In this document: piece after piece, positions 14,024 to 36,252 of the stretch
Position numbering within the stretch: the stretch's first letter is position 1
How the letters are laid out: every line of letters starts with the position of its first letter
Assembly (NCBI GenBank): GCA_021295655.1
Contig: JAGWBX010000028.1
Coordinates: 1-64,000, forward strand
Source of the DNA: Candidatus Latescibacterota bacterium
Lineage (GTDB): Bacteria > Latescibacterota > UBA2968 > GCA-2709665
DNA: 64,000 nucleotides
Direction: 5' to 3'
Translations under genes and position numbers: made by a program
Notes under the pieces: model-generated
The model's database searches: none
Told to the model about the DNA's origin: nothing
The model's input: the letters and a program-made list of their open reading frames with translations, nothing else

Positions 14024-14317
14024 GCTGGGAGGACCGGGGGGCCACGGGCGTGGACGTCGCGGGTCGGAGGATTCCGGTCGGAAGTCGCCGTTGGAGGCCG
14101 GGTTACTATTGTCGCCGTGAGATTGATGCGCCGGCGGGCAGCGCGGCTGGTACACCTGAGAATAGCAACCCGCCGCACCGCGTCAGGCGAATCGATAACC
14201 TCGGCATAATAAAGGGATTCCAGGAACATGTCAAGGTATTCAAGCGTGAACGGAACCGGAGCGAATTGTGGTCATCGGGGACGATTTCGGAATAACCTAT
14301 CAAATGGAGGCGGTCGG

Positions 14318-15949
14318 TTGAAACGGACGATTGCTGCAGTCTGTTGCCTGGTTCTCTGGTGTGAGGGCGCAACTGCCAGGGACTTTCTGGCGGAAATCGG
14401 CGCCCATGGTGCTCACGGACGAGCCGATTCCGCGCTGGTCACGGCCCGGCTGTTCGCGAAGACATTTCCGGACAGCGCGAACGCTCACGGCGTCCTCGGC
14501 ATGGTATACGCGCAGTTGGGGCAGCCGGAAGGCGCAGTCGAGGCCTTTGAGACGGCGATTGATCTTGGGCCGAATCTTGAAGCACCGTACGACGCGCTGT
14601 TCAGGATCCATGCACAACTAAACCGGGGTCGCGAAGCGCTGGACGTATTGAACCGGGGATTAACGCAGATTCCGAATTCCGTACTCCTGCTGATGGACAG
14701 GGCGATACTCTATCAGGAGGCCGGCAATCCAGGTCTGGCGGTACAGGACCTCAGAGCCGCGATTTCGCTGGATCCCGGAAATATCGAAGCCTACCAGTCT
14801 CTGGCGGGGCTGCATGTCGCGCTGAAGGACCCCAATAAGGCGCTTTCCGTTTTCGATGAGGGATTGAAGAACAACCCTGAAAGCGTCGTCCTGATGATCA
14901 ATCAGGGGCAGATCTACGGGGCGTTGGGTAAACCTCAGGAAGCGAATCAACTGTACGAACGCGCGATAATGGTGCTGGAGAAGGAACTCGAGAAGAATCC
15001 GAACGATGTTTCGCTGCTGGTTAACAAGGGCGCCATTTACCATTCGATGCGGCGGACCGCGTCAGCCTTCGCCGCATACCGGCAGGCTGCTTCTATAGCG
15101 CCGGACGACCCTGAGGTGCATCGTTCCATGGGTCAGATGGCGGCCGAGGTGGACTCGCTGGACGTTGCGCGGAAAGCCTGGGAGAAGGTGTCTCAGTTGG
15201 AGCCACGTGATCTGGATACACGATCAGCGCTCGCGCGGCTGTATACGGTTCAGCAGGAATGGGACCTCGCGCTGAACGAGTATCGGTTACTCCTGGAGAT
15301 AGCGCCTGAGTCGCAACGTGCGCGTCTCGAGTACGGTGTCGCGCAGGTTTATCTGCAGAAGGGCGACATGGCGCAGGCAAAGACGGCACTGGAAGCAGCG
15401 ATCAGTTCGAACCCGAACGTCCTGGAGCCTTACGGTGATCTTGCCCTGATCTACGCGGGACAGCAGGACCTGGACTCGGCCATTGTGGTCTACAACAGGG
15501 CATTGGCGGTGGATTCCACGAATGCTGGCGTTCTCTTCAACATCGGTCTTGCCCGAACGTCGAGGCGGGAGTTCGATCAGGCCAAGCGTGCCTTCGAAAA
15601 AGCCCTTGTATACAGCCCGAACGAAGAAATCGCGGGCGCGGCACAGATGAAAATTGACGAAATCGAGGGGATACAGTCGGGAAAGCTCTGGGCGTACCAT
15701 ATTCTCGTGGAAACCGAAGTGGAGGCCCGGGAAATCCTGAATAAGCTCAAGTCGGGCGAGGATTTCAGAGTACTTGCGCGCCAGCACTCCAGCGATTCCT
15801 CTGCGGAAACCGGGGGCGACCTGGGGTTCTTTTCGCCAGGCGATTTGAATCCGGCGTTTGAGGAAGCGGTGCTGAAATTGCGGGTGGGTGAGACCAGCGG
15901 GGTCGTTCATACACCCCTGGGTTATCACATTATCAGGCGGCTGAACTGA
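14318..15949 (+). CDS. secreted TPR protein with C-terminal parvulin-type (PpiC) peptidyl-prolyl isomerase domain
   Basis: Probable TTG start with GGAGG upstream; signal peptide LKRTIAAVCCLVLWCEGATA; about 10 TPRs; C-terminus AYHILVETEVEAREILNKLKSGEDFRVLARQHSSDSSAETGGDLGFFSPGDLNPAFEEAVLKLRVGETSGVVHTPLGYHIIRRL. Confidence 0.85.
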   Translation: MKRTIAAVCCLVLWCEGATARDFLAEIGAHGAHGRADSALVTARLFAKTFPDSANAHGVLGMVYAQLGQPEGAVEAFETAIDLGPNLEAPYDALFRIHAQLNRGREALDVLNRGLTQIPNSVLLLMDRAILYQEAGNPGLAVQDLRAAISLDPGNIEAYQSLAGLHVALKDPNKALSVFDEGLKNNPESVVLMINQGQIYGALGKPQEANQLYERAIMVLEKELEKNPNDVSLLVNKGAIYHSMRRTASAFAAYRQAASIAPDDPEVHRSMGQMAAEVDSLDVARKAWEKVSQLEPRDLDTRSALARLYTVQQEWDLALNEYRLLLEIAPESQRARLEYGVAQVYLQKGDMAQAKTALEAAISSNPNVLEPYGDLALIYAGQQDLDSAIVVYNRALAVDSTNAGVLFNIGLARTSRREFDQAKRAFEKALVYSPNEEIAGAAQMKIDEIEGIQSGKLWAYHILVETEVEAREILNKLKSGEDFRVLARQHSSDSSAETGGDLGFFSPGDLNPAFEEAVLKLRVGETSGVVHTPLGYHIIRRLN

Positions 15950-17224
15950 TGACCGGACGTTTTGCCGGAATGGGCGACGAGGCCTCTGGATCGTCGCCCG
16001 TTTTGTACGCGGGTAAGGGCGCGAGAAGGACCAAAGTGCTTTTTCTAACCGGTTGTACGGGGCGGGGAGGAGCCGGTAACAGTCTCTTCTACCTGTTGAA
16101 ACATCTCGATCCCGCCGCGCTCGAGCCCCTGGTCGTCATGCCCAACGAAGGCGTGTTGAAAAGCAGGCTTGAGGAGATCCGGGTGCCATACCGTATCGAA
16201 CCCCGGTTGAAGGAGCGCCTGGCGGAGATGCGGTTCCGGGGCCGGAACCGCATCTGCACAACGGCGTCGGTGATTCTGAACGCGATCGACGGCATACGGT
16301 TTACGTTCGATCTGGTTCGCATGGGCGCCCGGGAGAATGTAGGGGGTGAAGTTAATGGGCACAGTGGCCGGTGCGGTGTGCGGCACTCCGGTCATCTGGC
16401 ACTGCCGCACACTTTACGGAAAGACCTTCAGAGGATGGTTTTTCAACAGGCTTGCGCGCTCTGCGAGCGTGGCAAGAATTGTCGCGGTATCCGAGGCGTG
16501 CGCGGAAAATTTCCCGTCAGTAAAAGAAAAGGTCCAGGTTGTGTACAATGGCGTGGACCTGGTCAGTTTCAATCCTGAAACCGTTCAGGGGTGTGTGCGC
16601 AGGATGTACCGTATTGGCCCGGACGAAGTGGTTCTGGGATTCGTCGGGCGAATTGTCGAGTGGAAGGGCATCGATACCCTGCTGTCGGCGATGAAGCGTG
16701 TTCTGGCGCAACGCAAGGACGTCGTCCTGGTGGTTGTCGGCGGGAGCCCGCAGCGGTCGTTGGACCTCCTGGATCACTATCGACGCGAGGTGGCCAACGG
16801 GCGGTACTCGGGACGGGTCCTGTTTACGGGATTCCGTACCGACGTCCGTCCGTATCTGAAGGATATGGATGTCACGCTCGTACCATCCGTGGCGCCGGAC
16901 CCCTGTCCCCGAAGCGTTATCGAATCTCTGGCGCTTGGAACTCCGGTGGTCGGGTCTGCAACAGGCGGTGTCCCGGAGTTGATCAGGGATGGTTACAACG
17001 GATTCCTGGTGAAGCCGAACGACGCCTCGGGTCTCGCGGATGCCATCCTCAGGGTGATCGAGAACAGGGAATTGCGACGGCGAATGGGTTCGGCTGCCCG
17101 CGTTTCGGCGGTTCAGGGGCACGACGCTGTAGAAGTAGCCCGGCGAATACAGGAAATCATCCTTGAAACGCTTCGCGCGTCGCGTCCTCACGCGGGAGCA
17201 TTCCGCCTTGCTTTGAGCGGCTGA
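15949..17224 (+). pseudogene. GT4-family glycosyltransferase split by a frameshift near 16330-16350
   Basis: Frame 1 ORF carries the N-terminal half (KVLFLTGCTGRGGAGNSLFYLLKHLDP...IRFTFDLVRMGAREN); frame 2 ORF from 16346 carries VKLMGTVAGAVCGTPVIWHCR...VYNGVDLVSFNPE...GRIVEWKGIDTLLSAM...DPCPRSVIESLALGTPVVGSATGGVPELI. Confidence 0.75.
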
Positions 17225-17353: not shown

Positions 17354-18823
17354 ATGAAGATAGCATTGAAATTTTCGAATATTTTACTGTTTTTTCCGCA
17401 TAAATCCACACGCCGTATGTCCGGGAGGATGACGGGGGAGGCGTTGCAATTTTCCCACACATGTCGTAAAATTTCACACCTGACAAGGTTTCCTGTTTCA
17501 ATTGTCCTGGTCTGCGTTGTCGGGATCGGCATCCGCCCGTGTTATTCCGGATCCGGACAGCGCCCATACGATCTTGCCGGGTGCATACGGATGGCATTCG
17601 CGTCGAGCCCATCCATTCAGGCCGCCGAGACGGACCTGCAGATCGCGGAGAACAGGCTCCGGCAGGTATACGCTGCGCGATTTCTTCCCAGTCTGGATTT
17701 CACCTGGATGTTCGGGCCCTCGCCGGAGGCGAGAGGCGACGCGCTTACAGGGGTGAGCAACTGGCGGCAGATGAGTGTGTTTACGAGAACCGAACTTTCG
17801 ATGGTTCAGCCACTCTTCACCTTCGGAAAGCTCGATGCAGCGGTAGAAGCGGCATCCGGCGGGATTGGCGCGCAGCGCGCCGGACTTGAGAGGTCCCGAT
17901 TCGACCTGGAGCAGCAGGTCGCCAGGGCCTACTATCTGCTGCTACTGGCAAATCAGCTTCGGGCCCTGGCGCATGAGTCCCGGGCGGAGATCGACCGGGC
18001 ACGTCGAACGATCGCGGAAAAGCTGGAAGCCGATACGGGGGTTTATACGTATACGGATCTGCATCGTCTTGACAGGTTTGTGTACGACGTGGAGGAAAAT
18101 GCAAACAAGGTTTTCAAGAGTCAGGCACTCGCACGTTCGGCGCTCAGAATTCTCATCGGACTTCCTCAGTCCGATTCTCTTGTTCTCGCCGACGGAAGTC
18201 TGAAGCCGGTTGACGTTCAGATCCGTACACTGGCGCATTATCGGTCGCTTGTCGACGGGCGACCGGACCTGGCTCAGCTTCGTGAAGGGCTGCGGGTGCG
18301 GTCGGCACAGGCGCGTGCCGTCCGGACCGACCTGTTTCCGCAGGTTTTTCTGGCCGGGCGGTTCAAATACGGGTTTGCGCCGAACAGGGACCGCCAGCGG
18401 AACCCGTTTCTGAAAGACGAGTTCAACGTGACAGAATTGGGCGCCGTGCTTGGCTTCCGGCAGTCACTGTCATTCGCAAGTACGAGAGCGAAGGTTAAGG
18501 AAGCCCGTCTGGCCTACGAAAAACTCAGCTATCAGGCTCAGTTGGCTGTACAGGGCGCCCGGCTGGAGATTGAAGGCGCCTATCGGTCGCTTATTGAGGC
18601 GAAAGCCAATATCGGGGCGGCACGAGACGCCCGAAGGTCGACACGGCGGTGGTTCATTTCGGCAAGAGATGGATTCAATGCCGGGCTGGAGGAGGCGGGG
18701 GAGATGGTCGATGCGGTCAAGGAATACGGCATTATTCGCGCAAAGTACTATCAGGCCGTGTTGGAGTTCAATCTTGCCTGGGTGGCATTGCGGCGTGCGA
18801 CGGGTCATTCGATTCTGGAGTAA
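17354..18823 (+). CDS. TolC-family outer-membrane efflux protein
   Basis: YDLAGCIRMAFASSPSIQAAETDLQIAENRLRQVYAARFLPSLDF...; long helical repeats; start uncertain. Confidence 0.85.
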   Translation: MKIALKFSNILLFFPHKSTRRMSGRMTGEALQFSHTCRKISHLTRFPVSIVLVCVVGIGIRPCYSGSGQRPYDLAGCIRMAFASSPSIQAAETDLQIAENRLRQVYAARFLPSLDFTWMFGPSPEARGDALTGVSNWRQMSVFTRTELSMVQPLFTFGKLDAAVEAASGGIGAQRAGLERSRFDLEQQVARAYYLLLLANQLRALAHESRAEIDRARRTIAEKLEADTGVYTYTDLHRLDRFVYDVEENANKVFKSQALARSALRILIGLPQSDSLVLADGSLKPVDVQIRTLAHYRSLVDGRPDLAQLREGLRVRSAQARAVRTDLFPQVFLAGRFKYGFAPNRDRQRNPFLKDEFNVTELGAVLGFRQSLSFASTRAKVKEARLAYEKLSYQAQLAVQGARLEIEGAYRSLIEAKANIGAARDARRSTRRWFISARDGFNAGLEEAGEMVDAVKEYGIIRAKYYQAVLEFNLAWVALRRATGHSILE

Positions 18824-18837
18824 ATGGGGAGGGTGTA

Positions 18838-20277
18838 ATGGTAGACAAGGCGGTGATTATTGCTGCCGGAATGGGCAGCCGACTGAACGGTCACGGACGC
18901 GGCAGACCGAAGCCGCTGGTTAAAGTGGCCGGCGTCGGGTTGCTTAAGAGGGCCATATTGACCGCCAAACGGGCCGGTATCACGGAGTTTGCCGTTGTCA
19001 TCGGCTATCGGGGCGACGAAATACGTGAGGCCATTGAGGACGATCAACAGATCGACGTACACATAGACTGGGTTGAAAACCCGGAATGGACGCGTGGCAA
19101 CGGGCTTTCCGTTCTGAAAGCCCGGGATTACGTGGAGGGGCCGTTCCTTCTGCTGATGGCAGATCATCTGTTGGAACCGAAGGTAATCACCCGCATGCGG
19201 CGTCTGTTGCTGGGCGCCGGCGAATCGGCGTTGTGCATAGACACCCGGCTTGAAGGGATTCAGGATCTGGATGACGCAACCAAAGTCGTCCTGGACGGCG
19301 ACCGGATCCTGAAGATCGGCAAGGGGTTGAGCAGATACGACGCGGTGGATACGGGTATTTTCCTCTGTAGTCCGGCGCTGTTCGACGGTCTTGAGCTTGC
19401 CGTTTCCGGCGGCGACGATACGCTCTCGGGAGGTGTCCGTATCATGGCGTCGCAGGGAAACATGAGGGCGGTTGACATCGATGGCCTGTTCTGGCAGGAC
19501 GTGGATACACCGGACGCATTGCGTCATGGAGAAACGGCATTGTTTGGCCGGTTGGGCAAGCCGACTGACGGAATTGTGTCGCGGCATTTCAACAGGAAGG
19601 TTTCTTCCTGGATTTCCAGATTCCTGGTAAAGACGCCGGTGACTCCCAACCAGATTTCGATCGCCGCAATGATGGTGACATTTCTGGCAGGCTGGGCGAT
19701 GGCGGAAGGGAGCCATTTGTACGTAGCTCTGGGCGGGCTACTTTTCCAGTTTGCGTCAATTGTCGACGGCTGCGACGGCGAGATTGCCACGCTCAAGTTT
19801 GCGGGATCCCGCTTCGGGGAGTGGTTGGATACAGTCGCGGACAACGTCTCCTATCTTGGATTCTTCTCGGGTGTCATATACGGGATGTACAAATTAACGG
19901 CGGAACCGGTTGTCATCGCGCTGGGTTTCATTGCCCTCGCGTTGAATCTGCTTGCAGTCCTGCTCATCTGTGTGTACCTGAAGCATAGCGGTTCGGGTAG
20001 CATCGTAAGCTTCAATATGGGTTTTTCAAGCGAGGTACCGGAGGAGCGCCGCGGATATCTGCACCGCGTCTACTGCGGATTGAAGTTCGCGTGTCGCCGG
20101 GACTTCTTCGCCGCTTTGTTCTGCGTGCTGGCTGTTCTGAACTGCCTTGAGGCGATATTCTGGATCTTTGTGCTCGGTTCCGGCATGGTCGTGAGCGCCG
20201 TTTTCGGATACATCGGACACATCATGCGGACCCGTACGACGGAAGCGGAGAAGCTGGTTTCAGGAAAGGCGGATTGA
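18838..20277 (+). CDS. bifunctional nucleotidyltransferase / CDP-alcohol phosphotransferase, resembling CTP:inositol-1-phosphate cytidylyltransferase-DIPP synthase (IPCT-DIPPS)
   Basis: N-terminal NTP-transferase MVDKAVIIAAGMGSRLNGHGRGRPKPLVKVAG...LLLMADHLLEPKV; C-terminal PNQISIAAMM... IVDGCDGEIATLKFAGSRFGEWLDTVADN (CDP-OH-P transferase motif) with TM segments. Confidence 0.85.
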   Translation: MVDKAVIIAAGMGSRLNGHGRGRPKPLVKVAGVGLLKRAILTAKRAGITEFAVVIGYRGDEIREAIEDDQQIDVHIDWVENPEWTRGNGLSVLKARDYVEGPFLLLMADHLLEPKVITRMRRLLLGAGESALCIDTRLEGIQDLDDATKVVLDGDRILKIGKGLSRYDAVDTGIFLCSPALFDGLELAVSGGDDTLSGGVRIMASQGNMRAVDIDGLFWQDVDTPDALRHGETALFGRLGKPTDGIVSRHFNRKVSSWISRFLVKTPVTPNQISIAAMMVTFLAGWAMAEGSHLYVALGGLLFQFASIVDGCDGEIATLKFAGSRFGEWLDTVADNVSYLGFFSGVIYGMYKLTAEPVVIALGFIALALNLLAVLLICVYLKHSGSGSIVSFNMGFSSEVPEERRGYLHRVYCGLKFACRRDFFAALFCVLAVLNCLEAIFWIFVLGSGMVVSAVFGYIGHIMRTRTTEAEKLVSGKAD

Positions 20278-20392
20278 AGAGAGAAATGGCTGCAGGGAGA
20301 TTATCTGAGGTATCGAACGGGTATCGAGCCGGCCGGAAGGGTATTCCTGTGCCGGTTCGTTTTGTTTCTGGCCGAAAAAGGAACTGGCTAAA

Positions 20393-21016
20393 ATGAGAAT
20401 TTTGTCGTATATTATTGTGTTTTATGCTTTTGTTGGATTTTTGGGTGAATGCTCTCCCCTGGGTGCGGACCAGGCTGAACGGTTGCTCCGGTCGATGAAG
20501 GAACGGGACAGGTCAATAAAGGCAATTGTGAATTCGGAAACGGCGGGAGAGACAGCCGACGAGCGGGAGCAGCTGAGCGCAATCGTCGAAGCCATGTTCG
20601 ATTTCCGGCGGTTCGGCAAAGTCGCGTTGGGCCGTCACTGGCAGCGGCGCACAGAGGCTGAGCAGGCTGAATTTGCGGACCTGTGCAGGCGTCTGATCGT
20701 CAAGAATTACGCGGATCCGAAGCTGTATACGAAGTCCGAGAAAATCGAGTACGTGGATTCGGAGGTCGACAGCACGGAAGGTGTGGTTCGGACAATCGTC
20801 CATTATAAGGATGAGCAGAGCCACATCGACTACAAGCTCCATCCCGTCAACGAAAAATGGCTGGTATATGATATGGTGATTGACGATCTGAGCGTTGCCA
20901 GAAATAATCGATCTCAGTTCTACAAGGAAATCCGCAAGTCGTCATACGAGGGCCTTGTAAAGAAACTCAGAGACAAGCTGAACGAGGACGCGGCAGACGG
21001 GAAAGGGAAGGAATGA
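20393..21016 (+). CDS. MlaC/Ttg2D-family (toluene-tolerance) phospholipid-binding protein
   Basis: Signal peptide; FDFRRFGKVALGRHWQRRTEAEQAEFADLCRRLIVKNYADPKL...HYKDEQSHIDYKLHPVNEKWLVYDMVIDDLSVARNNRSQFYKEIRKSSYEGLVKKLRDKL. Confidence 0.9.
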   Translation: MRILSYIIVFYAFVGFLGECSPLGADQAERLLRSMKERDRSIKAIVNSETAGETADEREQLSAIVEAMFDFRRFGKVALGRHWQRRTEAEQAEFADLCRRLIVKNYADPKLYTKSEKIEYVDSEVDSTEGVVRTIVHYKDEQSHIDYKLHPVNEKWLVYDMVIDDLSVARNNRSQFYKEIRKSSYEGLVKKLRDKLNEDAADGKGKE

Positions 21017-21019
21017 TTC

Positions 21020-23467
21020 ATGCAGGATAGGTTGAAGTTTCTGGCGGACTTTGTCTATAGACGGCACGCCATCATTGTTGTTGTTTCAACTCTCCTTTCG
21101 ATTTTTTGCAGTTTTTTTGTCTATCGTCTGATCCAGCGCCTCGAGACGGATATCGCGGCGCTGATTCCGGAACACTATCCCAGTGTGAAGACACTCGAAG
21201 ATATCAAGGCGCGCCTGGGTGGCGTGGGAAGCCTGGTTGTTCTGGCGGAGTGTGAGGATTTCTCGGCGTCCAGGCGATTCGTGGAAGACCTGAATGTTGA
21301 ACTGAAGGCCGAGAAATATTGGAAATACGTAAATTATGTCGATTTTAAGCGTGAAGTGGACTTTTTCAAGGAAAACGCGCTGTTGTATATGGATCTCGAG
21401 GATCTGGAGGACATACAACTTCGAATCGACGATCGCATACGGCAGGAGAAACTGAAGCTGTCCCCGTTGTTTCTCAGTCTCGACGGCGCCGAAGACGACG
21501 AACCGCTGGATTTTTCGGATATCGAGTCGAAGTACAAAGAGAACGGAGACCGCGGGCACGAAGTCTATTACACCAATCCGGACAGTACCATCGTTGCCGT
21601 GGAGGTGATGGCATCGGGAACGGTGAGCAATATCGGATTCGCCAAAGAGATGTACGGCGTAATCCGGAGTGCCGTGCAGACCCTGGATCCGGTATCCTAC
21701 CATCCGGGGATGATCGTCTCAATCGGAGGATCGTATAAGAACAAGATCGATGAATACAACGTCATTCTGGGCGATATCAAGTCGACAGTCATCTTCGGAT
21801 TTGTAGGCGTCGTCTTGCTCCTCACGTTTTACTTCAGGCAGCCGCTGGCTGTCTTTTTTGTTGCCATCCCGCTCGTTATGGGGCTGACGTGGGCTTTTGC
21901 CATTACCTATTGGGCGATTGGCAACCTGAACACAATGACCGGATTCCTGTTTGTGATTCTGTTCGGCCTGGGAATCGATTTCGGCATTCACATGTTTTCC
22001 CGGTATCTGGAAGATCGAATGGCGAACATGGATGTCAGGCAGTCGGTCGAGACGATGTTGATCCAGACGGGTCAGGCCATTCTGACGGCCGCGCTGACCA
22101 CCTCGATGGCGTTCTATTCGCTCACGATAACGGATTTCAAGGGATTCTCGGAATTCGGCTTTATCGTCGGCACGGGAATCATCATGTCGCTGATATCAAT
22201 GACAGTTGTATTGCCGGCCTTTCTCGTTCTTGCCGACGAGCGATTGAAGCTCGTGCGGATGCGGCATGTACTTGGACACCACCGGGGCTCCAACAAGGGC
22301 CGGTTTCCGATGGCGCCGGCCGTGTTCGCGGTTGCGATCGCCGTTACGGCCTACCTGGCATACAATCTCGACCGGATCCAGTTTGAATATGACTTCACCA
22401 ACTTACGTTCCAATCTTGCGACGTCGAAGCAGGTGAAAGACAAGATCAATTCGCTCTCGAAATTCAGGGGCGAGTCGCATTCGCCAAGCGTCGTACTGGC
22501 CGACAGCAAAGAGGAGCTGAACGAAATCGTCGATGCGGTAAACGGCAAGATCGCATCCGACGATCCAACGCCGACAATTGACAAGATCAGAACGCTTTTG
22601 TCCTTTCTTCCCCAACAGGAGGACGAGAAACTGGCGTTGATCGCCGAACTTCGCGAACTGGTGGACGGCGAAGGTGCGAAATTGCTGAAAGGCGAGCAAA
22701 AGGAGCGAGTGGGCGAGTTGCGCGAATTGATGGACGTGAAAAAACTGAGGGTGGACGACCTGCCGAAGAACATCCTGCGCAAGTTTGCAACGGTAGACGG
22801 CAGCCGTGCCCATTTTGCCTTCATCTATCCCAGCGTGCAACTTCGAGACGGACGACAGGCCATTGAGTTCGCGAACGACATCCACCTGATTACGACCGAA
22901 TCCGGAAGGGCCTTTTATTCATCCAGTTCCAGTATCATATTCGCGGATATGCTCAAACTGATGATCCGGGACAGCAGGTGGGCGATTGGCATCACACTTC
23001 TGGTCGTCTTCCTGATCGTGTTCATCGATTTCAGAAGCATCCGAAACGGGCTGCTGGTCATGTTGCCGTTGATCTGCGGCGCCATCTGGATGTGCGGAAG
23101 TATGTTTCTGACCGGGATGAAGTTGAATTTCTACAATATGGTTGCCCTGCCCACCATCATCGGGATGGGCATCGATAACGGCGTGCACCTTTTTCACAGG
23201 TATCAGGAGGAAGGCGCGGATTCGATGCCAGTGATCCTTCGGAATACGGGAGGCGCGATGATGGTATCGATGATGACGACGATGATTGGCTTTTTCGGCT
23301 TGATTACGGCAAGGCACCCCGGTTTGAATTCCATTGGGAAACTGGCCGTGATCGGCCTTCTGACCTGTTTCGTGGCGGCCGTGATTGTCCTGCCTGCGGT
23401 ACTCGAAATTCTCGATCGAATCAAGCGGAAGCGAGGTCCGGTCAGAGTCGGGAGTGCGCGGCCATAG
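21020..23467 (+). CDS. MMPL/RND-superfamily transporter, HpnN-like
   Basis: About 815 aa, two related TM halves; TMTGFLFVILFGLGIDFGIHMFSRYLED and YNMVALPTIIGMGIDNGVHLFHRYQEEG motifs. Confidence 0.88.
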   Translation: MQDRLKFLADFVYRRHAIIVVVSTLLSIFCSFFVYRLIQRLETDIAALIPEHYPSVKTLEDIKARLGGVGSLVVLAECEDFSASRRFVEDLNVELKAEKYWKYVNYVDFKREVDFFKENALLYMDLEDLEDIQLRIDDRIRQEKLKLSPLFLSLDGAEDDEPLDFSDIESKYKENGDRGHEVYYTNPDSTIVAVEVMASGTVSNIGFAKEMYGVIRSAVQTLDPVSYHPGMIVSIGGSYKNKIDEYNVILGDIKSTVIFGFVGVVLLLTFYFRQPLAVFFVAIPLVMGLTWAFAITYWAIGNLNTMTGFLFVILFGLGIDFGIHMFSRYLEDRMANMDVRQSVETMLIQTGQAILTAALTTSMAFYSLTITDFKGFSEFGFIVGTGIIMSLISMTVVLPAFLVLADERLKLVRMRHVLGHHRGSNKGRFPMAPAVFAVAIAVTAYLAYNLDRIQFEYDFTNLRSNLATSKQVKDKINSLSKFRGESHSPSVVLADSKEELNEIVDAVNGKIASDDPTPTIDKIRTLLSFLPQQEDEKLALIAELRELVDGEGAKLLKGEQKERVGELRELMDVKKLRVDDLPKNILRKFATVDGSRAHFAFIYPSVQLRDGRQAIEFANDIHLITTESGRAFYSSSSSIIFADMLKLMIRDSRWAIGITLLVVFLIVFIDFRSIRNGLLVMLPLICGAIWMCGSMFLTGMKLNFYNMVALPTIIGMGIDNGVHLFHRYQEEGADSMPVILRNTGGAMMVSMMTTMIGFFGLITARHPGLNSIGKLAVIGLLTCFVAAVIVLPAVLEILDRIKRKRGPVRVGSARP

Positions 23468-23581
23468 CAGTCCGTTGCAAAAGTCGCTCTGCGGTCGAGG
23501 CCGAGACATTGTGGCCGGAAGCCTGTCTGCGTGCGTACGCACAGGCAGGCAGCCCGGATGGGCTTTTTCAACGGGCCGATA
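23465..23581 (+). repeat. dispersed TIR repeat, copy 1 (module A present, B absent, C present)
   Basis: TAGCAGTCCGTTGCAAAAGTCGCTCTGCGGTCGAGGCCGAGACATTGTGGCCGGAAGCCTGTCTGCG...CAGGCAGGCAGCCCGGATGGGCTTTTTCAACGGGCCGATA. Confidence 0.9.
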
Positions 23582-23715
23582 GCCCGTTGCGAGGCAGGAG
23601 TCCGTCTGGCTCGAATGCGTCGGCAGTACCGACGGGACCTGAAATCCTCTCGAAGACAGAAGACGCGGTCCGACGCGTGTTCTGTCCTTATTGACGGCTG
23701 TCGGGGCGCCCGCCT

Positions 23716-24516
23716 ATGAGTTTCTGGTTGCCGTTTCTCGTCAGTTTGACTTCAGGTTTGTACACGTCGTTATGGGGCGCATTCAAGGACTCCCCCTTTG
23801 AGGGCATGAAACGCCGCACGTTTCCCCGCAGCGTTTATTTTCATGCCGTTATCTTCTGCGCGCTTTATTGGCTGCCCGCTTTTGCCGAAGATTTCCGCCA
23901 ATTGAGCCTGTTTCAGGTTTTCTTTGCCACCATGGGCCTGGAACGGTTCCTCGCGGAGCTGTACAAGGGATTCTTCAGGTCGGAAGATCAGTCGAAATAC
24001 GCCGTGCCTTCCAGAATCACGTTCTTCGGCCGGCCGGTTACGAGCGAACCGTTGCGGCTCTTCTCAGGCGTTGTTCTGGTTTCGGCTGTCTTTTCCCTGC
24101 TGTTTCTCTCAGTGCGAATCGTGGACTTCGCGGTGTTCGCAGCGGTCGCCTTTTCCACGGGAATGCTGGTTTCTCTCGGAGGAGCATATAAGGACGCTCC
24201 CTTTGAGGGATTCGCGCCGCTGAAATTCTTCCGCTCCGCAACGGTCCTCGCCGTCTGTTCGCCCCTGTTTTACTATTCAAACGATCCGTTATCGCCGGCG
24301 CCGCTCGGATATCTGATCTTCATGAACGGCGGATTGGAGCGGTTTCTGGTTGAGTATTACAAGACGTACGTGCAGCGCACGATGTCAGGCAAGTTCAGAC
24401 CGGACCTGCCGCGGATCATACGGAGCATTGAGACACGCGAAAGATACCACTATATGGCGTGGATCATTATCGCCGGATTGATGGTTCTGTACGTTTATGA
24501 GCTCACGACCCTATGA
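23716..24516 (+). CDS. uncharacterised integral membrane protein with internal duplication
   Basis: Two related halves: GAFKDSPFEGMKRRTFPRS...GLERFLAELYK and GAYKDAPFEGFAPLKFFRS...GLERFLVEYYK; multiple TM segments. Confidence 0.8.
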   Translation: MSFWLPFLVSLTSGLYTSLWGAFKDSPFEGMKRRTFPRSVYFHAVIFCALYWLPAFAEDFRQLSLFQVFFATMGLERFLAELYKGFFRSEDQSKYAVPSRITFFGRPVTSEPLRLFSGVVLVSAVFSLLFLSVRIVDFAVFAAVAFSTGMLVSLGGAYKDAPFEGFAPLKFFRSATVLAVCSPLFYYSNDPLSPAPLGYLIFMNGGLERFLVEYYKTYVQRTMSGKFRPDLPRIIRSIETRERYHYMAWIIIAGLMVLYVYELTTL

Positions 24517-25993
24517 AGCCATCGTGATCGGTTCGGGTCTTGGGGGCGGCGCCGCGGCGTTCGCGCTCAGCCGGTCGGGTTTCCGCACGCTGCTTCTCGA
24601 GCGCGGCGGGTGGGTGAAACGGGACGTGCTGGACTGGAGCCCGCGCGGGATCCTGATCGATCAGAGGTACAGAAGCCGGTCGCCGGTGGATATAGAAGGT
24701 GAACGGGGCCTTCACACCGTGTATCCGAACGAAGCGGTCGGCGGCATGTCGGTATTCTACGGCGGGGCGTCGCTGCGGTTGCGTGAGACGGATTTCTCGA
24801 ACTGGCCGATCGATTACGGTGCAATGGAGCCGTATTATACGAAGGCGGAGCATCTCCTGGAGGTACACGGTCAGGCGGGGGCGGATGTGCACGAGCCGCC
24901 GAGGTCCGGAGCCTATCGTTTCGGAGGGATTGAACTCGCGCCTCCGGCGAAGCGGATATTCGAGGCCGCAAAGACGCTCGGTCACCGGCCCTTCAAGATT
25001 CCTCTGGCGCTTAATTTCACGAACAAAGACCGTCCGGTATGCATCCGATGTTCGACCTGTGACGGGTTTCCGTGCCGGATCGAAGCCAAGAACGACGTGG
25101 CCATGACACTTCTGGCAAAGGCACAGGCATTCGACCTGGCAGTCATGCCCGGTATGATCGTACGGCAACTGGAAACCCGAAACGGAAGGGTCGTACGGGT
25201 CCGGTGTCTGGACGGGACGACAAAACGGGCGGTCGATTTCAGTGCAAAGATCGTGATACTCAGCGCGGGGGCCCTGCAGAGCCCGGCCATCCTGTTGCGT
25301 TCCGGGCTGGAGCGACTCGACAACCACCGGCTGGTGGGCCGATTCCTGATGCGGCACTGCAATGCCGTGGTCACCGGTCTCTTTCCGTTTCGGACCAATC
25401 CCGACCGCACGTTTCACAAGCAATTGTGCTTTACGGATTTCTATGAAGACCTGAGAGACCGATTGGGCACGTCGGTGGGTACGATTCAGGACATCTACAC
25501 ACCCGCGCCGGAAGTGCTGAAGCACTACGCGCCCTTCGGATACGGGAGTCTGTCGGCCCTTGTAACGCGTTACCTCCAAAACCTGCTTTGCATCGCGGAG
25601 GACGAACCCCGATATGAAAACCGTGTGCAACTGACCACTCGAATGGACGACTACGGAATCGCGATTACCCGTGTGGTTCATCGATATTCGGAGGCAGACC
25701 GCCTCCGAAGGGAATACCTGACAGACAGGGCCAGGCGCATCTTGAAGCAGGCGGGCGGCCTGTATCACCGAATCTACAATCTGGATACGTTTTCCCATGC
25801 GGTTGGGTCGCTGCGTTTCGGTAACCGCGCCCGGGACAGCGTTCTGGATGAGTCATGCAGGTTTCGTGGCGTTGACAATCTGTTCGTCCTCGACGGCAGT
25901 TTCATGCCCACGTCGGGAGGCGTCAACCCAAGCCTTACAATCGCGGCCAACGCATTACGGGTCGCAGATGTCATTCGCGCCGAATACGGATAG
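24497..25993 (+). CDS. GMC-family FAD oxidoreductase
   Basis: EAIVIGSGLGGGAAAFALSRSGFRTLLLERGG; VGGMSVFYGGASLRLRETDF; SAGALQSPAILLRSG; C-terminal LFVLDGSFMPTSGGVNPSLTIAANALR. Overlaps the upstream gene by 20 bp. Confidence 0.9.
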   Translation: MSSRPYEAIVIGSGLGGGAAAFALSRSGFRTLLLERGGWVKRDVLDWSPRGILIDQRYRSRSPVDIEGERGLHTVYPNEAVGGMSVFYGGASLRLRETDFSNWPIDYGAMEPYYTKAEHLLEVHGQAGADVHEPPRSGAYRFGGIELAPPAKRIFEAAKTLGHRPFKIPLALNFTNKDRPVCIRCSTCDGFPCRIEAKNDVAMTLLAKAQAFDLAVMPGMIVRQLETRNGRVVRVRCLDGTTKRAVDFSAKIVILSAGALQSPAILLRSGLERLDNHRLVGRFLMRHCNAVVTGLFPFRTNPDRTFHKQLCFTDFYEDLRDRLGTSVGTIQDIYTPAPEVLKHYAPFGYGSLSALVTRYLQNLLCIAEDEPRYENRVQLTTRMDDYGIAITRVVHRYSEADRLRREYLTDRARRILKQAGGLYHRIYNLDTFSHAVGSLRFGNRARDSVLDESCRFRGVDNLFVLDGSFMPTSGGVNPSLTIAANALRVADVIRAEYG

Positions 25994-26058
25994 AGATCCG
26001 CTCCCCGGCCGTCCGCAGGCTGGCCGGAACATGACGTCGCTTGTCCGGAATCAGAGAA

Positions 26059-26994
26059 ATGAAGAAAATCTGTCTTGTGGGCTGCGGGACCATTGCCCGC
26101 CAGCACGCGAAAAATCTCACGGGCGCCGCCGAGCTTTTTTTCTGCAGTCGATCCGAAGAAAGCGCCCGGCGTTACAATATTGAGTTTCGCGGTAGCGGCA
26201 GCTTCCGCCGTCTGGAGGATGCGCTGGCATCGCCGGTCATCGACGCGGTGGTGATTGCGTCCCCTCCCGAATTCCATAAGGACCAGGTGATACGTGCGCT
26301 TTCGGCAGGTAAGGATGTGATGGTCGAAAAACCCATGTGCGTATCTCGGGAGGAGCTGGAAGCGGTCGGCGCGGCGGTGGCTTCGCGTCCGGAAGCGCTG
26401 TTGATGGTGGCTGAAAACTACTATTACAAACCGCTGCTCCGGAGAATCAGGGCATTGATCGCCCAGCGCCGGTTTGGAGACATCAGGACTGTACACGTGA
26501 AGAAGATGTTCACGCAGGCGACGTCCGGCTGGAAACGCCGGTACGGCGCCTTGCTCGAAGGAGGTATTCACTTTGTCGCGTTGATTTCCGAGATGTTCGA
26601 GGTTGCTCCGGAACGCGTCAATGGCCGGTTTCCGGGAAGGCGCGAGGGAGAACCGGAGCGGACGTCGGTCATTGAATTGACCTATCCCGGTAACGTGACG
26701 GCCGAGTTAAGGTATTCGTGGAATACGAAATGCCGCGCAAGGGGCGCCTTTCAGCACTCCCGGATTCAAGGCACGCAAGGACGGATCGTCTTTGAAAGCA
26801 ATGGCCTTTATGTACTCCGGAAGGGTCCTCGAGGCGTCCGTCTCTACTTTCCCGGAATATCGGATCTGATGGGGTTTGGGGAGATGACCAGGGACTTCAT
26901 GCGCTGCCTGGAAGACCGGAGCCGGAAGCCGTATTCCAGCTATCTGCGGGCCAGACGGGACCTGAGGATCGTTTTCGATGCCTATCGCTGGTAA
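26059..26994 (+). CDS. Gfo/Idh/MocA-family oxidoreductase
   Basis: MKKICLVGCGTIARQHAKNL, VIASPPEFHKDQVIRALSAGKDVMVEKPMCVSREE. Confidence 0.9.
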   Translation: MKKICLVGCGTIARQHAKNLTGAAELFFCSRSEESARRYNIEFRGSGSFRRLEDALASPVIDAVVIASPPEFHKDQVIRALSAGKDVMVEKPMCVSREELEAVGAAVASRPEALLMVAENYYYKPLLRRIRALIAQRRFGDIRTVHVKKMFTQATSGWKRRYGALLEGGIHFVALISEMFEVAPERVNGRFPGRREGEPERTSVIELTYPGNVTAELRYSWNTKCRARGAFQHSRIQGTQGRIVFESNGLYVLRKGPRGVRLYFPGISDLMGFGEMTRDFMRCLEDRSRKPYSSYLRARRDLRIVFDAYRW

Positions 26995-27218
26995 CGGTCG
27001 GCGCACTGACGCGTCTCCCGTCTGTCCGGGCGGCCGGTTCGCTGCGTCCCCGGCCGGAATATAAAAACGGTTGACCGCTTTTGTGCCAGTCGCTATATTC
27101 TCGGGCAACTTCCTCCCCGACCTCCTCCTTCCTGTGTAATACTCCTGCTCATCAAGCTATCCGGTACCAGTAACTGCAAATTTTCGTCTCCTCCTCATAA
27201 CGGCCACGATCGACGCCG

Positions 27219-28358
27219 ATGCATCGTGTTTACAATGGGCGTCTTGCCGCCCGGATAACGGTCCGAGGTAAAGCCGGAATCGACGCTGTGGAGAAGCGTG
27301 CGAGGGATCTGCCGGTGAACGATCGCCTGAAGTCTTATCTCGAATCCTTTGTACCCCTCATCGATGCAGAGCTATTCAGGTTTCTGCCTCAGGCCGAGCC
27401 ATTCGGCTATCTGTACGAACCCATGCGGGATTATCCGATTCGCGGCGGAAAACGGTTTCGGTCCGTACTCGTGCTGCTTGCGTGTGAGGGGCTTGGAGGC
27501 GCCGCAGAGAAGGCGTTGCGGACGGCGGCGGCGTTTGAAATGTTCCAGTCTTTCGCGCTGGTTCACGATGACATTGAAGACGGCTCGGAAATGCGCAGGG
27601 GCAAGCCCTGTCTGCACCATCTTCACGGTGTTCCTTTAAGCGTCAACGCGGGCGACGCGCTGCATTCGAAGGTGTTCGAAATACTCGCCAGCAACCGGGA
27701 GATTCTTGGCGATGCCGTGGCGCTCGACCTGATTCAGGAAATGCTTCACGGCGCCCAGCGCACGTTTGAAGGACAGGCGTACGACATCGGCTGGATCGAA
27801 TCTGGCGAGGTCCCCGAAGTTGGGGGTTTTCTGGAGATGCTGCGCCTGAAAACGGGCTGGTACAGCGGGAGAGGGCCGTGTACCGCGGGTGCGATCGTTG
27901 CAGGTGCATCCCCGGATTTCAAACGGGCGGTTGGCGCGTTCGGCGAGCGAATGGCGGTGGCGTTTCAAATCAGGGACGATCTGCTGAATCTGACCGTTCG
28001 GGCCGAAGATGCACACCAGGCCCCGGCGACAACCTCCGGAGGTTACGGAAAGGAACGCGGCGGAGACATCGCGGAGGGAAAACGGACCCTGATGGTGATC
28101 GATCTGTTCCACAGATGTTCTCCGGATGAACAGGCGTGGGTGCGGGAAATCCTGAACCGGGAACGGTCACGGACGAGGGCGGACGAGGTTGAACGGACGA
28201 TCTCACTGATGAAGCACTATGGTTCAATTGAACGGGCGGAAGACGCGTGCCGGGCGTGGGCGGCGGACGCGGAAGCGCATCTGAACGCCATTCCTCCCTC
28301 CGAGGCCCGGGAAACGATGCGGGAGATGTGCAGTTTTCTCGTTGACAGAGCATTTTGA
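27219..28358 (+). CDS. polyprenyl (isoprenyl) diphosphate synthase
   Basis: GGKRFRSVLVLLA, first Asp-rich motif LVHDDIEDGSEMRRG, second motif FQIRDDLLNLT; start may be GTG at 27315. Confidence 0.9.
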   Translation: MHRVYNGRLAARITVRGKAGIDAVEKRARDLPVNDRLKSYLESFVPLIDAELFRFLPQAEPFGYLYEPMRDYPIRGGKRFRSVLVLLACEGLGGAAEKALRTAAAFEMFQSFALVHDDIEDGSEMRRGKPCLHHLHGVPLSVNAGDALHSKVFEILASNREILGDAVALDLIQEMLHGAQRTFEGQAYDIGWIESGEVPEVGGFLEMLRLKTGWYSGRGPCTAGAIVAGASPDFKRAVGAFGERMAVAFQIRDDLLNLTVRAEDAHQAPATTSGGYGKERGGDIAEGKRTLMVIDLFHRCSPDEQAWVREILNRERSRTRADEVERTISLMKHYGSIERAEDACRAWAADAEAHLNAIPPSEARETMREMCSFLVDRAF

Positions 28359-29704: not shown

Positions 29705-30937
29705 GTGATGCCGGAAAGGCTGACGATGGGCGCGGCAAAGGTCGACGTGACGCCGCCGGTCGGAATGTCCATGGCCGGGTACTCGGGTCGCAAGAGCCCG
29801 GCAATCGGTACCCATCTGCCGCTGTGGGCGAGGGCGTTTGTGTGCCGGCAGGGTTCAATTCGGGTTGCGCTTGTCGTCGTCGACGTGGTCGGATTCAGCG
29901 GGCACACCACGGATACGATTCGGACGGCGGTCCGGGAACGCACGGGAATTGCAACCGACGGTATTCTCATTGCGACGACGCACACCCACTCGGGACCGGT
30001 AACCACCCGGTTCCGCGACGATGCACCCGACCCTTCGTATATGGGAGACCTGAAGGAACGGATTGTCGATGCGGTGATCAGAGCATCCAATGATCTGAAG
30101 CCGGTTACGATTGGCTTCACGCAGACGCGGGAACCCCGGTTTCACCATAACCGGCGCAAGGACGGTCAACCGATTGATTCCACGCTCGGGCTGGTGCGTT
30201 TTTCGGGAGAGGACGGACACGCCGTGGCCGCGTGGGTGAACTACGGCTGCCATCCGACCATCCTGACCGGTAAAAATCTCTATTGGTCCCCTGACTTTCC
30301 CGGTGTGGTCTGCAATGAACTGGAAGAAGCGTGGGGAGGTACGACCGCTTTTTTCAACGGCTGCCTGGGCGACGTGGGGCCGTACCGGCCGCAGCAGAAC
30401 TTCGCAGAGGTCAATAAGATCGGCGGCGGGCTGGCGGGTTCGGTGCGGGAATTGGCAGCGGACATGAAACAGACCGGTGTTTCCGGACTCGACGCGCAGC
30501 GGCTTTGTTGCACGTGCCCGCTGGATACACTGCCGACAGATGCAGATCTTCAGGAACAGTTGGCGCGTTCCGGACCTGAATCGTACCAGGCCGGCTGGGC
30601 GCGGGATCAGCTGGCGATGCGAGCGGCCGGTGATGCGGTCCCCAACACGGTGAGGCTGGAGGTGCAGGGGTTTCGGATCGGTGACGTCTTCCTGGCGTGT
30701 TTCCCCGGGCAGTTATTCGGTTCGTGGGGGCTCGAACTCAGACGTCGATGGCCGGACGACCGTCTGCTGGTGGTGAATCAGGCGAACGCGCATGCCGGCT
30801 ATTTCCCGTCGAAGGGAGCGTGGGATGGAGGCGGTTACGAGGTCCGCTCCGCGTTCATGTTCAATTCCGATCTGCCCGCGCCGATGACGTGGGAGGCGGG
30901 ACAGGCATTGGTCGATGCGGCGCTTGCCCTGGCGTAG
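29705..30937 (+). CDS. neutral/alkaline ceramidase N-terminal-domain-like protein
   Basis: MGAAKVDVTPPVGMSMAGYSGR...VALVVVDVVGFSG...ILIATTHTHSGP...NYGCHPTIL...FFNGCLGDVGP. Confidence 0.85.
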   Translation: MMPERLTMGAAKVDVTPPVGMSMAGYSGRKSPAIGTHLPLWARAFVCRQGSIRVALVVVDVVGFSGHTTDTIRTAVRERTGIATDGILIATTHTHSGPVTTRFRDDAPDPSYMGDLKERIVDAVIRASNDLKPVTIGFTQTREPRFHHNRRKDGQPIDSTLGLVRFSGEDGHAVAAWVNYGCHPTILTGKNLYWSPDFPGVVCNELEEAWGGTTAFFNGCLGDVGPYRPQQNFAEVNKIGGGLAGSVRELAADMKQTGVSGLDAQRLCCTCPLDTLPTDADLQEQLARSGPESYQAGWARDQLAMRAAGDAVPNTVRLEVQGFRIGDVFLACFPGQLFGSWGLELRRRWPDDRLLVVNQANAHAGYFPSKGAWDGGGYEVRSAFMFNSDLPAPMTWEAGQALVDAALALA

Positions 30938-34442: not shown

Positions 34443-34554
34443 CACGCAAGGGCCTCCCCGTTCAGGCTCCGGAGAATTGAATGGCGCGATTCTGCAGGCG
34501 CCGACCATACGGCTTGTCAGGTTTGAAGGTGGGAAACCTACGCGATACCCAACG

Positions 34555-36252
34555 TTATGTGCGGCCAACGGCTGGTCTGAACCGGATCCCGGGGCGTGCC
34601 GGTCCGCCTGCTACGGCAACGGGAGACCCGTCGGCGCGCCAGCATGCGGCGCCCGTGATGGTCCCGGAGGCGGGATTGTAGACGATGCCGTTCATGCCTC
34701 CGGCGACGGTGTTCACTTCGCGAATTTCGTGGCCCCGGTGGATGAGCCGGGTTCTTACGGTCTCCGGGATCGCAGGTTCGACTTCCAGTTCCTGGCCCTG
34801 GGTCCATACCCTGGGGGCTTCAACCGCTTCCTGCAGCGACATTCCGTGGTCGATCAGGTTGACGAGGGCCTGCACGACGGCGGGAAATATGCGCACGCCG
34901 CCGGGGGTGCCCAGCGCGAAACAGGGGTCGCCGCGTCTGGTCGCGATGGTGGGTGCGTTGCTGCTGAGCATGCGGCGGTTGGGACCGACTGAGTTGGCCA
35001 TACCGGGGTGAGGGTCGAAGAGGGCCATTGTGTTGTTGAGCAGCAGACCCGTTCCCGGGGCGACGATCTTGCAACCGAATCCTTCGTTGATGGTCTGGGT
35101 CATTGCGGCCACGTTGCCGGCCGCGTCCGCCGTGGTTACGTGGGTTGTACACGCGGATTCGGCTGAGGGGGGAGTGCCCGGGTCCATACGGGCCGCTTCT
35201 GCCGTGTTGATATCCGTGCGCCGGTGCGTTCCGTAAGTCTTCGATACCAGCCACTCGACAGGCACCTCCACATGATCGGGATCGCCCGAATACTTCGTAC
35301 GGTCGGCAAAGGCGATCTTGAAGCATTCGGCGAGGACGTGGATACCGTCGTCCGTGCCGAATCCGAGATCCGCTATGCTGAATCCCTCCAGCAGATTGAG
35401 GATCTGAAGCAGGTGCACGCCGCCTGAACAGGGCGGAGACGGAACAATGAGTTCATATCCCCGGTAGTTTCCCCGGATCGCTCTGCGCCGCACCGTGCGA
35501 TAGGCGCCCATATCTTCCATGGTGAGAACGCCGCCGCATTCCTGAACGTGATCGACGATCCTTTTCCCGAGAGGTCCGTTGTAGAGTACGTCCGGCCCGC
35601 CGTCCGCGACGTCGCGCAGGGACGCCGCGAGATCGGATTGAACCATCCGGGTGCCCGCGGAAAGCGGGCGCCCGCCGGGAAGAAAAATGCGGGCTGTTTC
35701 AGGAAATCTGCGCAGGTGCCGCCCGTTCTGCGCCACGGATTCGGCCAGATACCGGCTCACGGAAAACCCGTTTTCGGCAGCCTGAATGGCGGGCTGAATG
35801 ACGGTTTTCAGGTCCAGGTCGCCCCAGCGCCTGAGCGCCTCGCACCAGCCCTTCAGCGCGCCCGGTACGCCGATCGCCAGCGGGCCGGTCCTGTTCGCGT
35901 CGTCTTCGGTCCGCATGTATTCCGGCCACGCGTCGGAGACAGGTGAATACATGTCTGACGTCGCCGCGGCGGGCGCACAGGCATAAGTGTCGAGAATGAC
36001 GGCCGTGCCGTCGGCGAGGCGGATGTTGATCCAGCCTGCGCCGAAGAGGCCCACCATCTGGGGTTCGACGACGTTGAGTGCGAAGAGCGCGGCCACCGCC
36101 GCATCGATGGCGTTCCCCCCGAGGGCGAACATCTGTGCGCCCGCGGCAGAGCCGATCGGGTGGTTGGCGGCAACAACCCCGCGTGATCCGGTGGCCGGCT
36201 GTTTCTGGACGTCGAAGGGTGTGGAGGCGTTGTCGCGCCAATTTGCGGGCAT
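34555..36252 (-). CDS. gamma-glutamyltranspeptidase family protein
   Basis: VVAANHPIGSAAGAQMFALGGNAIDAAVAALFALNVVEPQMVGLFGAGW; catalytic region SACTTHVTTADAAGNVAAMTQTINEGFG; LSSNAPTI. Start taken as MPANW because the longer ORF begins inside repeat copy 4. Confidence 0.93.
   Translation of the reverse strand: MPANWRDNASTPFDVQKQPATGSRGVVAANHPIGSAAGAQMFALGGNAIDAAVAALFALNVVEPQMVGLFGAGWINIRLADGTAVILDTYACAPAAATSDMYSPVSDAWPEYMRTEDDANRTGPLAIGVPGALKGWCEALRRWGDLDLKTVIQPAIQAAENGFSVSRYLAESVAQNGRHLRRFPETARIFLPGGRPLSAGTRMVQSDLAASLRDVADGGPDVLYNGPLGKRIVDHVQECGGVLTMEDMGAYRTVRRRAIRGNYRGYELIVPSPPCSGGVHLLQILNLLEGFSIADLGFGTDDGIHVLAECFKIAFADRTKYSGDPDHVEVPVEWLVSKTYGTHRRTDINTAEAARMDPGTPPSAESACTTHVTTADAAGNVAAMTQTINEGFGCKIVAPGTGLLLNNTMALFDPHPGMANSVGPNRRMLSSNAPTIATRRGDPCFALGTPGGVRIFPAVVQALVNLIDHGMSLQEAVEAPRVWTQGQELEVEPAIPETVRTRLIHRGHEIREVNTVAGGMNGIVYNPASGTITGAACWRADGSPVAVAGGPARPGIRFRPAVGRT

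Follow-up and report, generated by a model that had tools for sequence, protein, structure and literature searches.

Inositol lipids are uncommon in bacteria. Inositol phospholipids have been described as receiving their head group from CDP-inositol (Jorge et al. 2015, as cited in a passage of PMC9246714), and in CDP-alcohol phosphotransferases that use soluble donors of this kind a hydrophilic pocket replaces the CDP-diacylglycerol groove (PMC4634129). The closest characterised enzymes to the one considered here, the IPCT-DIPPS fusions (NCBIfam family NF041135), join a CTP:inositol-1-phosphate cytidylyltransferase (IPCT) domain to a CDP-alcohol phosphotransferase domain and make di-myo-inositol phosphate. 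We analysed a 64,000-nucleotide stretch (hereafter the window) of contig JAGWBX010000028.1 from a Candidatus Latescibacterota bacterium, a metagenome-assembled genome (MAG) of 4.6 Mb that is 97% complete with 7.8% contamination, in which a fusion of this type stands in a conserved cluster with TolC, MlaC, an RND transporter, a 266-residue membrane protein (MP266), a GMC oxidoreductase and a Gfo/Idh oxidoreductase. We propose, giving the idea about an even chance of being right, that the product of the cluster is an inositol-phosphate membrane lipid, which its proteins synthesise, tailor and transport.

The fusion gene (18838–20277) encodes an NTP-transferase domain followed by a CDP-OH_P_transf domain in one chain, and its best NCBIfam model was NF041135 (IPCT/DIPPS; E 3e-73). 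The score of 247 bits was below the curated cut-off of 580 bits for this model, which is named for Thermococcales, and none of the 64 genomes of the phylum that were searched reached it. Among solved structures, 4mnd, the IPCT-DIPPS of A. fulgidus, matched best across both domains (E 3e-49). The nucleotidyltransferase domain matched the IPCT structures 2xme (E 3e-26) and 4jd0 from T. maritima (E 4e-15), whereas phosphocholine and glucose-1-phosphate transferases scored far lower (LicC, 1jyk; E 6e-4). Thus the domain did not group with sugar-1-phosphate or phosphocholine transferases, and the IPCT-DIPPS assignment made in a preliminary description of this DNA was upheld, the family being the closest characterised one by a wide margin. 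The cytidylyltransferase signature AAGxGxR...PK and Asp109 were present, with A9, A10, G11, G13, R15, P24, K25 and D109 invariant in the fusion alignment, and every Asp and Gly of the CDP-alcohol phosphotransferase motif DxxDGxxAR(x8)GxxxDxxxD, though not its Arg, was retained in the window protein.

Sister genomes held the same locus at 84–96% identity, and the cluster is therefore not a binning artefact. Within the window's order, which comprises two families, both the fusion and MP266 were found in 21/21 genomes searched, and the order TolC, IPCT-DIPPS, MlaC, RND, MP266, GMC was kept wherever the contig extended far enough (L042 ends after the IPCT gene). Because the same genes recur in the same order throughout these two families, at a protein identity of roughly 50–70%, the arrangement is more than chance. 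Most genomes of one genus (L076, L079–L082 and L107) lacked Gfo/Idh at its usual position. All of these comparisons are to be read with the caution that MAG labels may be wrong, that some contigs are short and that absence in MAGs is weak evidence. Eight co-directional genes had been described, with their families, and the open reading frame (ORF) check and the Pfam and NCBIfam searches agreed, placing all eight on the plus strand at unchanged coordinates. Three of their junctions had been called tight; this held for MlaC–RND (21016/21020, 3 bp) and MP266/GMC (24516/24497, a 20 bp overlap), but IPCT–MlaC (20277/20393) proved to be a gap of 115 bp. The other spacings were 14 bp (TolC–IPCT), 248 bp (RND–MP266), 47 bp (GMC–Gfo/Idh) and 224 bp (Gfo/Idh–prenyl synthase), and in pattern scans the gaps from TolC to the prenyl synthase gene contained no plus-strand hairpin resembling a terminator.

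Scanning the genome collection with an MP266 alignment gave 40 loci, with GMC directly after MP266 in 36 and Gfo/Idh next in 26. The nearest relatives came from three MAGs labelled Gemmatimonadota (RHO isolates), and most other near ones carried the label Candidatus Latescibacterota. MP266–GMC–Gfo/Idh loci were also present in MAGs labelled KSB1, Acidobacteria, Vicinamibacteraceae, Deltaproteobacteria and Bacteriovoracaceae; no GMC gene adjoined MP266 in a Flavobacteriales-labelled copy. The expected conservation of the MlaC, RND, MP266 and GMC set around IPCT-DIPPS was thus seen in related genomes, with RND and MP266/GMC found also in two other phyla. The gene set is conserved, as the proposal of a single operon would have it, but these arrangements suggest that it is better read as two modules: module A, consisting of IPCT-DIPPS with MlaC, RND and TolC (joined in relatives by DUF3047 and a flippase-like PF03706 protein), and module B, the MP266–GMC–Gfo/Idh triad. 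In the Latescibacterota family f4 the triad lies at one locus and IPCT/DIPPS with TolC, DUF3047, MlaC and RND at another (e.g. L156 and L157).

The two modules were joined in the window's order, in one Bdellovibrionota MAG, where inositol-phosphate synthase (MIPS) accompanies them, and in one 'Deltaproteobacteria' MAG. The Bacteriovoracaceae (Bdellovibrionota) MAG L102 carries the row MIPS–TolC–CDP-alcohol phosphotransferase–MP266–GMC–Gfo/Idh beside IPCT, PF03706, RND and MlaC, the phosphotransferase in the row being a second one; at L103, IPCT-DIPPS and RND accompany the triad, with DUF3047. Strong IPCT-DIPPS matches were rare in Bdellovibrionota (only 5/369 genomes). One of these loci (L174) has RND–PF03706–IPCT without the triad, and in another (L173:7744–10143, minus strand) one ORF of 799 residues, with a DUF3047 gene close by, encodes the NTP-transferase and CDP-alcohol phosphotransferase domains together with a PF03706 domain. 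No partners of the RND, PF03706 or DUF3047 type were apparent at a further two of the five (L171 and L172), whose contigs are short or cut. Split IPCT and CDP-alcohol phosphotransferase genes adjoin a Wzx-like flippase, MlaE and an ABC ATPase at L064:236–5869. DUF3047 repeatedly adjoins IPCT/DIPPS genes together with MlaC, RND or PF03706 (L155, L157, L160, L173 and L103), and is a candidate new component of the pathway. Phage or mobile origin was considered and rejected: MP266 had no match to phage sequences, and IPCT matches on plasmids were partial and below 60% identity (at most 35.5% among the matches listed) and, in the two settings examined, unlike the cluster. One of these two settings was a Sphingomonas cluster of CDP-alcohol phosphotransferase, MIPS and IPCT; in the cultured organism Sphingomonas parapaucimobilis, a plasmid carries CDP-alcohol phosphatidyltransferase, inositol-3-phosphate synthase and IPCT-like genes in succession (L185:10056–12723).

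The first gene of module B (23716–24516) encodes MP266, a polytopic membrane protein for which an internal duplication had been reported. Half-versus-half alignment substantiated this: the halves are 38% identical across a stretch of 90 residues (two-sequence comparison, E 7e-13), and each carries the motif KDxPxEG...GxERFxxExYK. Residues constant over 23 members include WGAFKDSPxE, ER...E..K and GGxxKDAPxEGF; so many charged residues within a membrane protein would be consistent with binding of a phosphorylated or polyhydroxylated substrate. AlphaFold2 models from two runs were confident (pTM 0.83 and 0.87) and built of long helices. MP266 gave no significant Pfam, NCBIfam or PDB-sequence match, the best NCBIfam match (E 0.004) being found in 3 of the 23 members and not in the window protein, and Foldseek searches gave nothing significant among PDB structures (best E 0.64 and 0.44) or BFVD viral models (best E 0.57). 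With matches at chance level only, identity with a known membrane enzyme was rejected, and MP266 is apparently a new protein family. Remote relatives (about 31–35% identity) without an adjacent GMC gene were seen in records labelled Altiarchaeales, Marmoricola and Microgenomates (L108, L109 and L110), so that the family is wider than the cluster.

The GMC-family FAD oxidoreductase (24497–25993) has both the N- and the C-terminal domain (PF00732 and PF05199) with the catalytic His/Asn pair. Over 41 GMC sequences C182, C185, C188 and C193 were invariant, and His434 and Asn477, the pair typical of active GMC enzymes, were nearly so. The nearest solved proteins were the large subunits of glucose and fructose dehydrogenases; because the cysteine region of the window protein aligns with the cysteine-rich stretch of these subunits, an iron–sulphur cluster is possible. 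Scores against the mycofactocin MftG models were below the cut-offs (71 of 387 bits for TIGR03970 and 73 of 400 bits for TIGR04542). For the NAD-dependent Gfo/Idh/MocA oxidoreductase (26041–26994), K97 (the lysine of the EKP motif), E173 and H177 were invariant, Glu173 occupying a position that in inositol dehydrogenases is usually an Asp; the score against the inositol 2-dehydrogenase model TIGR04380 (IolG) was 75 of 355 bits, below its cut-off.

Module A, besides the fusion, contains genes for a TolC/OEP outer-membrane channel (17354–18823; PF02321, E 1e-35; start codon uncertain), an MlaC-family periplasmic lipid-binding protein with solved relatives (20393–21016; PF05494, E 3e-33, 115 bits against a Pfam gathering cut-off of 26) and an 815-residue HpnN-like MMPL/RND lipid transporter (21020–23467; PF03176), whose solved matches were of the HpnN type (5khn and 6wu0; best E 1.5e-30). 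A lipid product is suggested mainly because lipid-transport proteins repeatedly accompany IPCT/DIPPS genes. MIPS is encoded in the window's own genome, outside the cluster, and was found in 22/23 further genomes chosen for MP266 and/or IPCT compared with 6/14 named controls, which are not a matched background; it was also present in MP266 genomes where IPCT was not found (G065, G070 and G079). MIPS, the fusion to PF03706 and the lipid type of the transporters all agree with the inositol-lipid theme of the preliminary description.

According to our proposal, inositol-1-phosphate, the product of MIPS, would react with CTP at the IPCT domain to give CDP-inositol, from which the CDP-alcohol phosphotransferase domain would pass inositol phosphate to an alcohol in the membrane, diacylglycerol being the simplest candidate. 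The GMC enzyme (with FAD and its four invariant cysteine residues) and Gfo/Idh (with NAD) may oxidise and/or reduce a hydroxy group of a lipid-linked or free cyclitol, working at the membrane with MP266. The HpnN-like RND protein, MlaC and TolC would shuttle the lipid across the periplasm, in one direction or the other. A more specific idea, which we regard as doubtful, is that MP266, GMC and Gfo/Idh act as a complex, so far undescribed, that modifies cyclitols at the membrane, first oxidising and then reducing a lipid-linked inositol and so epimerising it. MP266 would then be a new fold dedicated to inositol-bearing lipids, and the complex would be coupled in some lineages to the CDP-inositol/RND/MlaC lipid pathway.

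Several observations weigh against the inositol-lipid proposal. The canonical Arg of the CDP-alcohol phosphotransferase motif is a Thr in the window protein and a Ser, Thr or Lys (mostly Lys) in relatives, with Arg in L056, L102 and L103. In the family that the window belongs to, no gene for a PF03706 protein was seen next to the cluster. The triad is present, too, in MAGs with an Acidobacteriota label in which IPCT was not found, and the two modules are thus not obligatory partners. Finally, CpgD from Caulobacter, whose best structural match is the T. maritima IPCT, uses phosphoglycerate and makes CDP-glycerate (PMC12275187), so that neither fold nor motif settles which substrate the fusion uses. 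Cytidylyltransferases of the superfamily vary in substrate at low identity, and a ceramidase-like hydrolase is encoded downstream (29705–30937), both of which would suit a substrate other than inositol-1-phosphate (phosphoglycerate, or a different cyclitol or amino-sugar alcohol bearing a phosphate); the product would then be some other anionic lipid of the envelope, akin to ceramide diphosphoglycerate. We consider such a substrate unlikely, since the A. fulgidus IPCT-DIPPS matches both domains at E 3e-49 and MIPS is present in nearly all genomes tested and clustered in L102.

The product could also be a surface glycan or polymer bearing inositol phosphate, assembled on a lipid carrier and exported by RND, TolC and MlaC, as the GT4 gene beside TolC in the window's family, the Wzx-like proteins adjoining IPCT in L053, L056 and L064 and the second CDP-alcohol phosphotransferase in L102 might suggest. 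However, the cluster showed neither a polymerase nor a priming transferase nor a second glycosyltransferase, and its most constant partners, MlaC and the HpnN-like RND protein, are both of lipid type, which makes a glycan quite improbable. If the fusion made the osmolyte di-myo-inositol phosphate as in hyperthermophiles, which is after all the characterised activity of NF041135, the envelope neighbours would be incidental. Lipid-transport genes nevertheless recur alongside it in several phyla, it occurs fused to a PF03706 membrane domain, and the cluster showed no phosphatase that would act on the phosphorylated intermediate, so that we give an osmolyte little credence. If a unit for trafficking hopanoids or sterols, of the HpnN/HpnM or BstA type, merely adjoined IPCT-DIPPS, this would explain why HpnN and HpnM were the best-scoring models for RND and MlaC. 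Both scores were far below the cut-offs (333 of 752 bits, E 3e-99, for RND with TIGR03480 and 62 of 160 bits for MlaC), as were those of RND with NF052374 (HpnN; 208 of 1100 bits) and NF045600 (BstA sterol transporter; 220 of 1400 bits), and the genome, at 97% completeness, had no hopene-cyclase match above the cut-off and one partial match below it. Hopanoid transport was rejected on these grounds, and the adjoining-unit explanation is largely refuted, with next to no probability left. We prefer an inositol-phosphate membrane lipid as the product of the cluster.

The preliminary description had further included the polyprenyl (short-chain isoprenyl) diphosphate synthase (27219–28358; PF00348, E 9e-55) and, by way of example, an isoprenoid or ether backbone. 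In other genera with a prenyl synthase nearby, an MrfA-like helicase lies between it and Gfo/Idh, and no prenyl synthase was seen beside the cluster in other phyla. We thus rejected this gene, one of two in the genome and paired with a transaldolase-like gene, as a member of the system and regard it as a neighbour only, and because of this an isoprenoid or ether backbone is without specific support. The genome has genes for a GGGPS/PcrB homologue, immediately following alanyl-tRNA synthetase (G000:C68:14572–15249; L113:14536–15288), and for four UbiA-family proteins, which would make archaeal-type ether lipids possible in this organism; as all of these lie away from the cluster, an ether lipid was not specifically supported as its product.

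Upstream on the plus strand, a TPR-repeat protein with a C-terminal parvulin-type domain (14228–15949; NCBIfam TPR and PrsA/PpiC matches) is syntenic within the order, its membership of the system being uncertain. Between it and TolC lies a GT4 glycosyltransferase gene in the window's family and a gene for a PF03706 protein in the order's other family. The GT4 gene of the window (15949–17224, plus strand) is split into two overlapping frames (15949–16578 and 16346–17224); a sister genome (L071) has an intact ORF of 418 residues, and the split represents an assembly frameshift or a recent pseudogene. The downstream ceramidase-like gene encodes a hydrolase of the neutral/alkaline type (PF04734, E 4e-16), and a similar gene follows downstream in each of L071, L075 and L089. 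Two long ORFs with similar-looking starts, one in the window (31683–34568, minus strand, 961 residues) and one beside a second prenyl synthase (L115:11184–13901, minus strand, 905 residues), look like one family.

CDP-inositol lipid synthesis is already known, and the gene set is undescribed in the literature searched. There we found no description of the TolC/IPCT-DIPPS/MlaC/RND/MP266/GMC set or of MP266, and no report combining MlaC and an RND transporter with inositol, HpnN and MlaC with the outer membrane, or inositol and epimerization with a GMC oxidoreductase. The cluster predicts an inositol lipid with a dedicated envelope-transport route in a little-known phylum of uncultured bacteria, represented here only by MAGs, and ties two proteins of unknown function (MP266 and DUF3047) and the PF03706 flippase-like protein to inositol-lipid biology in several phyla. 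If MP266 is indeed a new fold tied to inositol metabolism, it would be a tractable biochemical target, being small, highly conserved and present in many lineages.

Compared with the IPCT-DIPPS enzymes (4mnd and NF041135) and the CDP-inositol lipid route, the window has the same two-domain order, catalytic motifs and MIPS in the genome, but adds MlaC, RND and TolC together with the redox/membrane triad, replaces the Arg of the CDP-alcohol phosphotransferase motif and scores far below the NF041135 cut-off. With the HpnN/HpnM hopanoid and BstA sterol transport systems it shares an RND protein of the same broad group and an MlaC-like partner, and differs in that its proteins lie below all cut-offs of those families and its genome has no hopene-cyclase match above the cut-off. 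DprE1 and DprE2 carry out the two-enzyme epimerisation of a lipid-linked sugar in mycobacteria. They offer an analogy in working only, an FAD enzyme and an NAD enzyme acting on one lipid-linked polyol; the protein families are different, and epimerisation is here a candidate reaction only. The alternate inositol-lipid clusters of Bacteroidetes, with an NTP-transferase, a CDP-alcohol phosphotransferase and an HAD hydrolase near MIPS, resemble the window in the proposed route from CDP-inositol to phosphatidylinositol and in the MIPS linkage; in the passages of PMC9246714 that describe them, the transferase and phosphotransferase are separate proteins and RND, MlaC, TolC, MP266, GMC and Gfo/Idh are not mentioned. 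As in the ceramide diphosphoglycerate pathway (PMC12275187), a cytidylyltransferase of related fold would feed an anionic lipid head group, but CpgD is a stand-alone enzyme acting on phosphoglycerate, whereas the cytidylyltransferase of the window is fused to its CDP-alcohol phosphotransferase domain.

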